Source: a virus. Taken from it: a stretch of DNA of 41,355 nt. Shown piece after piece: positions 26,321 to 33,299 of this stretch (positions within the stretch are counted from its first letter, which is position 1; the number at the start of each line of letters is the position of its first letter). The translations under genes and the position numbers were made by a program. Location of the stretch: IMG/VR virus record IMGVR_UViG_3300031825_000030, positions 1 to 41,355 of that record, one strand, 5' to 3'. A model generated the notes under the pieces. That model was not told the DNA's origin. It ran no database searches and worked only from the letters and a program-made list of their open reading frames with translations.

Positions 26321-26398
26321 GGGTTGTTTTGGGTATTGAAAAAGGCGAAGAACCCATATGGGTCCCCCGCCGAATGTCCGGTTTGGGCTAACATGCAT

Positions 26399-26444
26399 AC
26401 TATACCACGCTTTGCGCGCGGTTTCCGCAACAGGGTGTTAGCAA
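26399..26444 (-). promoter_or_regulatory. Box-type promoter ahead of portal gene
   Basis: On the minus strand TTGCTAACA (26444-26436) is followed after 31 bases by TATAGT (26404-26399). The 124-base gap between the 65-residue gene and the portal start contains this element only. Confidence 0.65.
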
Positions 26445-28524: not shown

Positions 28525-30057
28525 CTACAGAGCTGTCTCGTTGCTTATGTCCTCCGCCTCGGTTATCGCGGTCTCGAACCCGACGAGCTGCTTCGCCATG
28601 GCGACCGCGGACTCGAGCGCCGTGCGCACGACCTTGTGCGGGTCGACGATGCCGGCCTCGAGCATGTTGACCTGCCTGCCGCTCTTGAAGTCTATCCCGA
28701 CGCCCCTGCCCGTCTCCGGGAAGTCGTGGAAGCCCGAGTTCTTCGCCATCTGCGCGAGCGGCGCGGCGAGCGCCTTGTAGAACATCGGGTCGCCCACCAG
28801 GCTGGATATCTCGTTGAGCGCGACGCCGCCGCCCGGGACGATGCCCTCCTGCACCGCGGCCTGGGTCGAGGCGATGGCGTTGTCGAACTTGTACTTCATG
28901 GCGTTGTACTCCGTGTCCGTGTACGCGCCGACGCGGATGACGCCGATGCCGCCGGTGAGCGCCGCGATGCGGTCCCTCAGCTGCGCGGAGCCGTACTCGC
29001 TCGTCGAGTCCGCGAGCTTGTTCTCGAGCTCCTTCGCCCTCGCCGTAGGGTCCCCCTTCCCGCCTATCACGGTCGTGGTGTCCCTGGTGACGATTATCTT
29101 CTCGGCCCTGCCGCACAGGAGCCTGGTCGCCTCGTCGAGCCGCATGCCCATCTCCTCGGATATGACGGTCGCGCCTGTGATGGCCGCGAGGTCGAAGAGG
29201 AAGTCCCTCGCCGGGCTCGCCTGGTACGGGTTCTGCACGCAGGCGATGTGGGCGATGCCGGACACGGCGTTCTTTGCGAGCGTGCCGAGCGCCACGGAGT
29301 TGACGTCGGTCGCCACGATGAGTATCGAGTTGCCCGTGCCTATCGAGTTCAGGAGCCCGACAATCTGTTCGTTGGTCGAGACGGTCCTGTCCACGAGCAC
29401 CACGTACGCGTCCTCGAGCACGGTCTGGGCGTTCTCGTGGTCGTTTATGAAGAACGGGCTGATGAGGCCCTTCGGGAAGCGCATGCCCTTGACCACCTCG
29501 TGCGAGCAGCCGAGCTTCGCGCCCTTCTCGACAGTTATCGCGCCGGTCGGGCCGACCTCGCGGATGACCTCGGCGATGAGGCCCGCCACGCCCTTGTCGA
29601 GGCTGGACACCTCGGCGATGCGCTCGAGGTCGCCGTCCTCCACCGGGACGGACATGTCCTTGAGGTGTGCCCTCGCCTCCTCGAGCCCCCTGTCGAGGCG
29701 CTCCTTGACGAGGCGCACCTTCGACGGGTCGCCCCCGACCTCCGCGACGGCCTCGTTGGCCAGCGCCCGGGTGAGCACGGTCGTCGTGGCGGTGCCGTCG
29801 CCGCCCTGGTCCGAGCTCCGCGTCGCGCCCTTCTTGAGGAGCAGCAGGCCCATGTTCTCGTGCCTGTCGGCGAACTGCAGGTTCCTGAGCACGGTCACGC
29901 CGTCGTCCGCGACTATCGGGTCGAGGCCCGGGAACTCTATGAGCGCGGTGAGGCCGACCGGCCCGAGCGTCGGGGCGACCGCGTCGGCCGCCTTGTTCAC
30001 GCCGGCGAGCACCTTCCCCCTCGCCTCCTCCCCCTGGGTTATCCTCTTGTTCTTCAT
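28525..30057 (-). CDS. groEL: GroEL-type chaperonin
   Basis: 510 residues covering equatorial, intermediate and apical domains. ATP-site residues are conserved at the same numbers as in E. coli: D52 (in ADDGVTV) and D87 (in GGDGTATTTVL); the catalytic Asp398 equivalent is in FDNAIASTQAAVQEGIVP, before GGGVAL. The C-terminal Gly/Met tail of bacterial GroEL is absent (ends ISNETAL), and the protein is about 38 residues shorter. Chaperonins fold proteins in an ATP-driven cage; here it lies between terminase genes and GroES, so virion proteins are the likely clients. The start at ATG 30057 overlaps the GroES stop by four bases. It is clearly divergent in the apical domain. Confidence 0.97.
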   Translation of the reverse strand: MKNKRITQGEEARGKVLAGVNKAADAVAPTLGPVGLTALIEFPGLDPIVADDGVTVLRNLQFADRHENMGLLLLKKGATRSSDQGGDGTATTTVLTRALANEAVAEVGGDPSKVRLVKERLDRGLEEARAHLKDMSVPVEDGDLERIAEVSSLDKGVAGLIAEVIREVGPTGAITVEKGAKLGCSHEVVKGMRFPKGLISPFFINDHENAQTVLEDAYVVLVDRTVSTNEQIVGLLNSIGTGNSILIVATDVNSVALGTLAKNAVSGIAHIACVQNPYQASPARDFLFDLAAITGATVISEEMGMRLDEATRLLCGRAEKIIVTRDTTTVIGGKGDPTARAKELENKLADSTSEYGSAQLRDRIAALTGGIGVIRVGAYTDTEYNAMKYKFDNAIASTQAAVQEGIVPGGGVALNEISSLVGDPMFYKALAAPLAQMAKNSGFHDFPETGRGVGIDFKSGRQVNMLEAGIVDPHKVVRTALESAVAMAKQLVGFETAITEAEDISNETAL

Positions 30058-30356
30058 AGGACCGCGATGATGTCCGGTATCGCCACGACCTTCATGTCCT
30101 TCCCCTCGACCTTCATCTCCTGCGTGTCGGGAGACCACTTTGCGAACACGACGACGTTCCCGACCGCGAGGTCGCTCTGCCTGTCGCCCTCCGTGTACGT
30201 GACCGCCGTGGTCCCGAAGCTCCTCTGGAGCGGCTCGCCGACCATGACGATTCTGCCCTTCGACACGAAGTCGTCCATCACGTCGACGGTCTCGAAGCCC
30301 GCGCCCCTCTCCTTCTCCACCCGCTCGACCAGCACCCTGTCTCCGATTATCTTCAT
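30054..30356 (-). CDS. groES: GroES-type co-chaperonin
   Basis: 100 residues: MKIIGDRVLVERVEKE, a mobile-loop region (GAGFETVDVMDDFVSKGRIV), then VGNVVVFAKWSPD and the terminal strand KVVAIPDIIAVL. This is the Cpn10 fold pattern with the usual length. It normally caps the GroEL ring. The mobile loop differs from the GGI(V/L)L type of bacterial GroES, suggesting co-adaptation with the phage GroEL rather than the host one (inference). Overlaps both neighbours by ATGA. Confidence 0.93.
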   Translation of the reverse strand: MKIIGDRVLVERVEKERGAGFETVDVMDDFVSKGRIVMVGEPLQRSFGTTAVTYTEGDRQSDLAVGNVVVFAKWSPDTQEMKVEGKDMKVVAIPDIIAVL

Positions 30357-31112: not shown

Positions 31113-31337
31113 TTATAGGCCCCTGATTCGGTCGAGCCACGCCTTCATACCGCTGTCCTCAGCCTCCTGCTCCTCGAAGTCCTGCTGCGTGGCCTCGGGG
31201 AAGAACGCCCCGACCACCTCCCGGTCGTCCTCGTCTCTCACTGTCTCGACGACCGCCTCCGGGGCCTGGAGCAGGAACTCAAGCTTGTCCGGGTCCTTGC
31301 GCGACAGCCGCCACATCCTCTGCAGCCTCTTCAGCAT
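31113..31337 (-). CDS. Small acidic hypothetical protein
   Basis: 74 residues, basic start (MLKRLQRMWRLSRKDPDKLE) and acidic end (FEEQEAEDSGMKAWLDRIRG). Its first 59 bases overlap the 3' end of the putative small terminase gene in another frame. No family recognised. Confidence 0.7.
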   Translation of the reverse strand: MLKRLQRMWRLSRKDPDKLEFLLQAPEAVVETVRDEDDREVVGAFFPEATQQDFEEQEAEDSGMKAWLDRIRGL

Positions 31338-31761
31338 GGTGGTCTCCGGTTAGCCTCTCCCTGATAATCGTCTCGATGCGGCGCACCTCGTCCTGGGTCT
31401 CCTTGGAGAATATGAAGTTGTACGTCGCCCCTGGGTTCTGGTCCCTCGGCGGCTCCGCGGTCTTGAAGCCCGCTCTGTCCAGAACGTCCTTCGCCGCGAC
31501 GAGCGAGACCATCCCGCTCTTCCTGTTCCTTGCGTGGCCCATGACGATTTCGGCCGCCTCCCCGGCAACCGACTCCAGATATGCCCTCACGCCAGGCTTC
31601 GCTAGCACTTCGCTGGCAATCGAACGAGCTGAAGCGGGATTGGACGTATTGTACACAATGAGCGCCGCCTCCTGCCCGGACACCCCGACCAGCGTCAGGT
31701 CTGCCAGCTTCTTCTCGTTCTCCGTGAGGCCTGTCTTCTTATCCTTTGCTCTCTTCGCCAT
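31279..31761 (-). CDS. Putative terminase small subunit
   Basis: 160 residues: basic start (MAKRAKDKKTGLTENEKKLA), a helix-turn-helix-like region (QEAALIVYNTSNPASARSIA, SEVLAKPGVRAYLE), a long charged helical part (ETQDEVRRIETIIRERL) and an acidic end. A DNA-binding head, oligomerising helices and position upstream of the packaging genes are typical of TerS. The assignment is by pattern and context. Confidence 0.68.
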   Translation of the reverse strand: MAKRAKDKKTGLTENEKKLADLTLVGVSGQEAALIVYNTSNPASARSIASEVLAKPGVRAYLESVAGEAAEIVMGHARNRKSGMVSLVAAKDVLDRAGFKTAEPPRDQNPGATYNFIFSKETQDEVRRIETIIRERLTGDHHAEEAAEDVAAVAQGPGQA

Positions 31762-31999: not shown

Positions 32000-32055
32000 A
32001 TTGTAGCGCGCTTTCCTTGAAAATATGTTGGCAAACCTGTTGGCAGTGTTAGCAA
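32000..32055 (-). promoter_or_regulatory. Triple-box promoter downstream of tRNA-Gln
   Basis: Three copies of the box sit in a row on the minus strand: TTGCTAACA (32055-32047), CTGCCAACA (32046-32038) and TTGCCAACA (32034-32026). TACAAT (32005-32000) lies 41, 32 and 20 bases downstream of these. It would drive the terminase, GroES and GroEL operon. Confidence 0.68.
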
Positions 32056-32059
32056 CTTG

Positions 32060-32133
32060 CTGGGTCGGTAGGACTCGAACCCACAGACTCCTGGTCCAGA
32101 GCCAGGCGTTTCTACCGTAGAAACTACGACCCA
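32060..32133 (-). tRNA. tRNA-Gln (CUG)
   Basis: Full cloverleaf: acceptor TGGGTCG (32133-32127) pairs perfectly with CGACCCA; D-arm GTTT..AAAC; anticodon stem CCTGG/CCAGG with loop CTCTGGA giving anticodon CTG; T-arm GTGGG-TTCGAGT-CCTAC. Discriminator base G73, as in tRNA-Gln. CCA is not encoded. CAG is the dominant Gln codon in the phage genes. The 5' end overlaps the upstream coding gene by ten bases. Confidence 0.92.
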
Positions 32134-32652: not shown

Positions 32653-32653
32653 G

Positions 32654-32724
32654 TTGCGCGGGCCGGGGTCGAACCGGCTTGTCGAGCTTATGGGGCTCGC
32701 GACCGTCCGTTGGTCCACCGCGCG
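32654..32724 (-). tRNA. tRNA-Met (CAU), initiator-like
   Basis: 71-nt cloverleaf: acceptor CGCGCGG with CCGCGCA, leaving a C1-A72 mismatch as in bacterial initiator tRNA; D-arm GACC-AACGGAC-GGTC; anticodon stem CGAGC/GCTCG with loop CCCATAA; four-base variable loop; T-arm GCCGG-TTCGACC-CCGGC; discriminator A. Two oddities: base 33 is C instead of U, and the anticodon stem lacks the GGG:CCC pairs of initiator tRNA. CCA is not encoded. A CAU anticodon could also be modified to read AUA (tRNA-Ile2), and ATA is common in this genome. Confidence 0.83.
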
Positions 32725-32729
32725 ATTTC

Positions 32730-32998
32730 GTTCCGTCGGGACGGTGTAGGGAGCCGCGAGGACTAGAATAATCCTGCACGCGCCCACAGCTTTCGCTTGA
32801 GGAGTCCAGGGTCGCGCTGCAGCACATCCCTGGAGGGCCACGCGTCGGTTTCTATCCCGCGGCGCTCCCTGTTGTCTTCCCCCTACACTGTTCCGACGGT
32901 CACGAGGGTCTGCATTCCTGCGTCGCAGGCGCGGTCACCGGACCGCCTTTTCCCTCGTTGGCTAGTCTTGAAGACAGAGCCTCGTCACCGCCGCACTG
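32730..32998 (-). ncRNA. Structured RNA of unknown class, upstream of tRNA-Met
   Basis: No open reading frame fits, but nearly every segment pairs. CCGTCGG (32733-32739) with CCGACGG (32893-32899) and GTGTAGGG (32744-32751) with CCCTACAC (32881-32888) form a long-range helix around a 4x4 internal loop. Inside are 32749-32760 with 32856-32869, ACGC/GCCC with GGGC/GCGT (32778-32785, 32835-32845), TCCAGGG/CCCTGGA (32805-32834) and a GAAA tetraloop (32788-32797). A second domain is closed by ACGAGGG/CCCTCGT (32902-32908, 32952-32958) with two inner hairpins (32917-32929, 32931-32946). A further hairpin is at 32960-32981. The GTGTAGGG and GGGAGC pairings compete for three bases. It begins just after TATAAT (33008-33003) and ends at the tRNA 5' end, where RNase P would release it. 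It does not match tmRNA or RNase P signatures I know. Confidence 0.7.
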
Positions 32999-33002
32999 AT
33001 AC

Positions 33003-33056
33003 ATTATACCGCGCGGAATCGGCGAAAACGAGGCCAAAAAACGAATGTGTTAGCAG
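33003..33056 (-). promoter_or_regulatory. Box-type promoter for structured RNA and tRNAs
   Basis: A perfect TATAAT (33008-33003) on the minus strand, with CTGCTAACA (33056-33048) 39 bases upstream. That is about one helical turn farther than the usual 30. Transcription would start around 32996, at the 5' end of the structured RNA. Confidence 0.7.
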
Positions 33057-33107: not shown

Positions 33108-33140
33108 AGAATAGAGAAAGGCCCGGGGAAATCCCGGGCC
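33108..33140 (-). terminator. Intrinsic terminator after small basic gene
   Basis: An eight-base perfect stem GGCCCGGG/CCCGGGCC (33140-33133 with 33127-33120) with an ATTTC loop, followed on the minus strand by TTTCTCTATTC. It follows the stop codon of the 50-residue gene by six bases, so the transcript from the nuclease genes ends before the RNA/tRNA promoter. Confidence 0.85.
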
Positions 33141-33146
33141 CTTCTC

Positions 33147-33299
33147 TTACCTGAACCTTCGCTTCTCCCCTGCGTACGGTCCTTGCGGAACGCGGTTGTA
33201 CCCGCCCTTCGGGTAGTCCTTCCGCTTCCGCCTTTCCGCGTACGCCGCGCGCTTCTTGTCGTGGGAGTAGCTGTTGGCTCTGTATGGGTTGTGGGCCAT
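33147..33299 (-). CDS. Small basic protein
   Basis: 50 residues, rich in Arg, Lys and Tyr (MAHNPYRANSYSHDKKRAAY, then AERRKRKDYPKGGYNRVPQG, ending PYAGEKRRFR). The strong charge suggests RNA or DNA binding. It is directly followed by the terminator at 33108-33140, which supports a real gene end. Two other minus-strand frames here look out of phase. Confidence 0.65.
   Translation of the reverse strand: MAHNPYRANSYSHDKKRAAYAERRKRKDYPKGGYNRVPQGPYAGEKRRFR

Follow-up and report, generated by a model that had tools for sequence, protein, structure and literature searches.

We identified, in a 41,355-base record of an uncultured virus (the window, i.e., the whole stretch of DNA that was analysed), a structured RNA of approximately 275 nt that is encoded on the minus strand from 33,000 to 32,725 (predicted ends) and has a tRNA-Met as its 3' neighbour. 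To judge by the comparison of related phages, this RNA almost certainly has a job, because nearly half of its letters have changed without loss of the four-armed shape. On balance, we lean slightly towards a new noncoding-RNA family of phages, with its own promoter and accompanied by tRNA-Met; the RNA would be processed from the tRNA precursor and is predicted to act in trans. It is the family that is new; its kind, the phage structured RNA beside tRNA genes, is already known.

The minus strand also carries the genes for the portal, the major head protein, TerL, and GroEL. Upstream of the RNA, an operon whose last gene encodes a RusA resolvase ends in a strong terminator, followed by the TATAAT element and by a cassette in the order promoter, RNA, tRNA-Met, small ORF, and tRNA-Gln, with gene X next (Table 1). 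The predicted RNA start is 5 nt past the TATAAT. The TATAAT and the junction with the tRNA-Met had been pointed out in the preliminary description and are present, all on the minus strand. The cut expected of RNase P (32725/32724) coincides with the predicted 3' end of the RNA. The window ORFs that overlap the RNA have no match in the syntenic relatives. A terminator or attenuator hairpin with a U-run before the tRNA was sought on the minus strand between 33003 and 32725 and not found, and an intrinsic attenuator or riboswitch leader was discarded for that reason.

Relatives were found by a TerL scan of IMG/VR, their TerL being 83-84% identical. Three of them (L005, L006, and L026) have, at the same site, the promoter, the RNA, the tRNA-Met (decayed in L026), the small ORF, and the tRNA-Gln, with gene X, a probable TerS, GroEL, and TerL downstream of the cassette. 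In a fourth (L003), the promoter and the first domain of the RNA are followed directly by gene X and TerS, without the second domain or the tRNAs; the record of this phage is a 21-kb fragment, and the absence of domain 2 refers to this site.

Table 1. Features of the RNA cassette and its surroundings in the window.
Feature	Position	Strand	Remarks
Intrinsic terminator	33113..33147	-	15 pairs (10 G-C); closes the upstream operon, just 5' of the RNA promoter
GCTAACAC box, possible activator site	33047..33054	-	38 bp upstream of the -10 element; tentative
-10 element TATAAT	33003..33008	-	RNA helix begins 5-6 nt downstream in 5/5 phages
Domain 1, strand A AGTGCGGCGGTGACGAGGC	32979..32997	-	RNA 5' end; partner of C (14/17 pairs, 5 double changes against L006)
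Domain 1, strand B CCAACGAGGG	32952..32961	-	Near-copy of A; can pair with C instead
Domain 1, strand C ACCCTCGTGACCGTCGGAAC	32890..32909	-	Partner is A or B; overlaps the base of P1
Domain 2, P1 5' strand	32879..32899	-	13 P1 pairs common to relatives, 6 compensatory
Domain 2, GACAAC linker	32871..32876	-	Invariant; between P1 and arm a
Domain 2, arm a	32834..32870	-	8-nt loop GATAGAAA at 32856-32849; consensus RRUARRAA across relatives
Domain 2, arm b	32806..32833	-	Ends in the invariant palindrome CTGCAG, 32822-32817
Domain 2, arm c	32783..32804	-	Invariant apex AAGCGAAAGCT, GAAA tetraloop
Domain 2, arm d	32755..32780	-	Separate predictions in window and L006; register one base apart
Domain 2, P1 3' strand	32733..32753	-	From the fold and the pairs common to relatives
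tRNA-Met (CAU)	32653..32724	-	ARAGORN; Rfam tRNA 42.9 bits; directly 3' of the RNA
tRNA-Gln (CTG)	32059..32133	-	Final part of the cassette
Gene X, 75 aa	31739..31966	-	First gene past the cassette; directly after domain 1 in L003
Probable small terminase subunit (TerS)	31279..31761	-	Weak Terminase_2 match

Some observations on the surrounding genes can be set beside this layout. The window holds exactly three copies of GCTAACAC, all on the minus strand (33047-33054, 32046-32053, and 26435-26442); each has a -10-like site 30-40 bp downstream, and the three precede the RNA, gene X, and the portal gene. Three matches were reached in 2 of 100 shuffles, and the motif may be a late-activator box; the copy before the RNA promoter is not kept in L006 or L003, so the activator site there is tentative. 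Immediately after the promoter-like site of the portal operon comes a strong terminator hairpin (26344-26442, minus strand; conserved at approximately 11780-11890 in L003 and L026), an attenuator-like leader that recalls lambda PR'-tR'. The phage-encoded GroEL gene (28525-30138, minus strand) lies directly upstream of TerL, as it does in the relatives. The tRNA-Met of the window has C33 in place of U33 and a C1xA72 mismatch, the latter being a feature of bacterial initiator tRNAs.

The minus strand of the RNA region (274 nt) folds at -125.2 kcal/mol, against -105.8 ± 5.1 kcal/mol for 200 dinucleotide shuffles, none of which was as low (z = -3.79), and the homologue in L006 gives a z of -7.60. 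In the window this signal comes mostly from domain 2 (z about -5.2), domain 1 alone being weak (z about -1.1). Domain 2 comprises approximately 170 nt arranged as a closing helix P1, the GACAAC linker, and arms a-d, and its conserved apical and linker motifs read, in RNA letters, GACAAC, the RRUARRAA loop, CUGCAG, and AAGCGAAAGCU. The long helix described earlier (32899-32881 with 32751-32733) is part of the minimum-energy fold, and the inner domain that it encloses has the GAAA arm at 32804-32783, with four arms instead of the three helices initially drawn. Both strands of domain 2 fold about equally well in the window; z is -8.7 for the sense versus -3.2 for the antisense strand in L006, and -7.6 versus -2.8 in L026. 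This strand bias, together with the 7-9 G-U pairs of the domain, argues for an RNA rather than a DNA element.

Further arguments come from the comparison with L006, whose RNA is 52% identical in sequence to that of the window. First, the two sequences, folded separately, give the same architecture for domain 2, with 36 pairs in common, where 200 randomisations of the changed positions gave a mean of 6.7 and a maximum of 22. Second, the window structure imposed on L006 yields 47 standard pairs out of 56 (35.1 expected) and 18 double changes (9.4 expected), values as high being found in 0 of 5000 trials. Third, the 40 consensus pairs are 99.4% paired, with 16 compensatory changes against 0-2 in sliding controls, a count that is biased upward because the pairs were picked from both folds, which makes the imposed-structure test the fairer one. 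The covariation rests on few events, since the five phages amount effectively to two or three independent lineages. The preliminary description had proposed a stable phage RNA of unknown class, and this fits what was found: a folding advantage over shuffled controls, compensatory change in relatives at 16-18 pairs of domain 2, and no match to an Rfam class, common or otherwise.

Domain 1, of approximately 100 nt, begins at the predicted 5' end of the transcript in all five phages and is closed by ACGAGGG/CCCTCGT, as had been described. The core common to its strands A and B is AUGGGG in L006 and ACGAGG in the window, and strand C matches it in each, passing from CCCCCA to CCCUCG. The A:C helix keeps 14 of its 17 pairs with five double changes (p about 0.02) and B:C keeps six of six with two (p about 0.2, which alone is not significant). 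The calculated minimum is A:C in the four relatives L003, L005, L006, and L026; in the full-length RNA of the window, the overlap of C with the base of P1 shifts the preference to B:C (0.71, against 0.29 for A:C). Folding of the growing chain predicts that B:C forms first and A:C afterwards. Since A and B both pair with C and change together with it, domain 1 is probably bistable, and its standing as a conserved bistable element is moderately supported. That the RNA may switch had been suggested before, on the grounds of a competition between GTGTAGGG and GGGAGC; this pair was dropped, the GGGAGC position reading AAGAAU in L006, and the suggestion survives in the different, conserved competition within domain 1.

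One may ask whether domain 1 is itself the active element, i.e., a cis-acting antiterminator that works as nascent RNA, like put of HK022. RNA polymerase would be loaded with it at the tRNA-TerS-TerL promoter and would read through the terminators further on; domain 2 would be an accessory. We consider this rather unlikely, although it is the main rival. In HK022, putL lies just downstream of PL, and putRNAs are approximately 70 nt long with two stem-loops (PMC9378689). The locus resembles this arrangement in that the predicted phage transcript opens, just past its promoter, with a structured RNA in five of five phages, and this RNA precedes a long operon with terminators, including a strong one approximately 6.6 kb downstream, in the gap between TerL and portal (26371-26344), whose position is kept in L003 and L026. 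It is also favoured by L003, which keeps domain 1 immediately ahead of gene X and TerS but has neither domain 2 nor the tRNAs there, and the fact that domain 1 remains there as a 5' leader counts against action in trans. Cleavage by RNase P would not abolish a put-like action, because put antitermination works at 10 kb or more and needs no tethering (PMC9378689). However, 1) domain 1 is set apart from put by its length and by its architecture, with the A/B/C exchange, and matches no known RNA family; 2) the window RNA adds a second domain of 170 nt and a tRNA; 3) gene X has, in the window, its own promoter-like site (TACAAT) past the cassette, and the portal operon also has one; and 4) this reading offers no explanation for domain 2, which is the best conserved part.

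The history of the cassette bears on the remaining explanations. L006 and L026 are 90.6% identical in the cassette and 72-76% in its flanks, and L003 shares 93% identity with L026 from TerS on, with a different cassette. Because the identities of cassette and flanks disagree in both pairs, the simplest explanation is an exchange en bloc, by which promoter, RNA, and tRNA would move between phages as a unit. Within the cassettes of L006 and L026, identity is 96.6% in domain 2, 89.5% in tRNA-Met, 86.3% in tRNA-Gln, and 83.3% in the ORF. The tRNA-Met 3' of the RNA is canonical in the window, has an aberrant T-loop in L006 (L006:2216-2291), and has a decayed T-arm and a lost cloverleaf in L026 (L026:6118-6199), where the RNA is retained. 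Since domain 2 is better conserved than the tRNA-Met and is kept where the tRNA decayed, the RNA is not merely a tRNA leader. This makes it improbable that the structure has no independent action and only serves the tRNA-Met precursor or the 5' end of the late mRNA, through protection or processing, as a 5' stabiliser or an RNase P leader: P1 does stop a few bases before the tRNA, and helix A does hold the 5' end of the RNA, but the conserved loops and the linker exceed what a protective stem requires. Very improbable indeed is a role in packaging, as a pRNA-like molecule or, at the DNA level, as a pac/cos site close to the small terminase gene: the RNA lies at a module border, approximately 1 kb upstream of the probable TerS, but L003, in its 21-kb record, keeps domain 1 and has no domain 2 at the site despite being 93% identical to L026 across the packaging genes (which disfavours, for domain 2, the packaging-RNA option first raised), the G-U pairs and the strand bias indicate RNA and not DNA, and there is no Rfam match to pRNA.

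Searches for further members returned the same few phages. At both gathering and relaxed thresholds, Rfam gave only tRNAs and nothing else meaningful across the RNA, and no covariance-model match to GOLLD, ROOL, or another Rfam class was obtained. BLAST of the RNA against 50,697 phages gave no real match, and no cultured phage with the RNA was found in the collections searched. Motif scans of IMG/VR recovered only L003, L005, L006, and L026, the other hits having a different fold or a near-chance score with the covariance model. This model added no members among the TerL/GroEL relatives, and a scan with a neighbouring protein added no genomes. When 84,980 genomes were scanned for TerL, two MAG contigs came back, with the RNA absent from both; one TerL relative (61%) is located in a MAG of approximately 1.2 Mb, and the RNA was not found in 380 genomes of one phylum. 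The relatives have other folded gaps (in L047, in L041, and at 5090-5469 of L003), which proved to be unrelated or repeat-based. In L047, a more distant relative, a two-domain noncoding stretch lies approximately 3 kb upstream of GroEL (L047:6864-7141; z = -7.6); it has a strong fold and no match in Rfam, and BLAST showed no similarity between it and the window RNA.

Several known phage RNAs invite comparison. The stable RNAs C and D of T4 are noncoding and co-transcribed with phage tRNAs, as is predicted for the window RNA; the likeness lies in this arrangement, the phages being unrelated. The pRNA of phi29 is likewise a structured RNA of a phage, which has a junction and makes loop-loop contacts. 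In contrast to it, the window phage has a probable TerS with its TerL, and L003 has no domain 2 at the site; a covariance-model match to a phi29-type packaging RNA was also absent. The best reading, by analogy, is that the window RNA is of the same general kind as GOLLD and ROOL, ornate RNAs of phages and prophages that are multi-branched and often near tRNA genes, as the window RNA is directly before a tRNA-Met and then a tRNA-Gln. GOLLD env-38 is located downstream of tRNA-Met, and GOLLD and OLE carry palindromic kissing loops (PMC12286853), with which the invariant palindromic CUGCAG loop may be compared. For the homo-oligomeric, RNA-only cage of GOLLD and ROOL, this loop is the feature of the window RNA that would correspond. 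The window RNA differs in its size (approximately 275 nt, against several hundred to over 800 nt), in its position upstream of the tRNA, and in its probably bistable 5' domain, and it has no Rfam-level similarity to them.

For a trans-acting RNA of this type, the process might involve 1) the production of RNA and tRNA-Met together from the RNA's own promoter; 2) the formation of B:C in domain 1, followed by strand displacement towards A:C, which would make a two-state 5' module; 3) cleavage at the tRNA 5' end, which would free a stable RNA with both ends in helices; 4) action of the freed RNA in trans, in the late phase, as a scaffold or ribonucleoprotein; and 5) possibly dimers, which the conserved palindrome of the CUGCAG loop suggests. 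More tentatively, the RNA could represent a new functional class: a mobile late-phage RNA that self-associates via CUGCAG, alternates between two 5' structures, and acts on a host machine, whether polymerase, ribosome, or defence system.

Large structured phage RNAs beside tRNA genes, such as GOLLD and ROOL, are known yet unexplained. The RNA described here has a size (approximately 275 nt) that suits chemical probing and structure work, clear predicted 5' and 3' ends, and conserved loops that lend themselves to mutation; in L003, which has domain 1 only, nature also provides half of it. These traits would make the function of such RNAs directly testable. The triple covariation of strands A, B, and C would likewise offer a clean test case for conserved co-transcriptional strand exchange.
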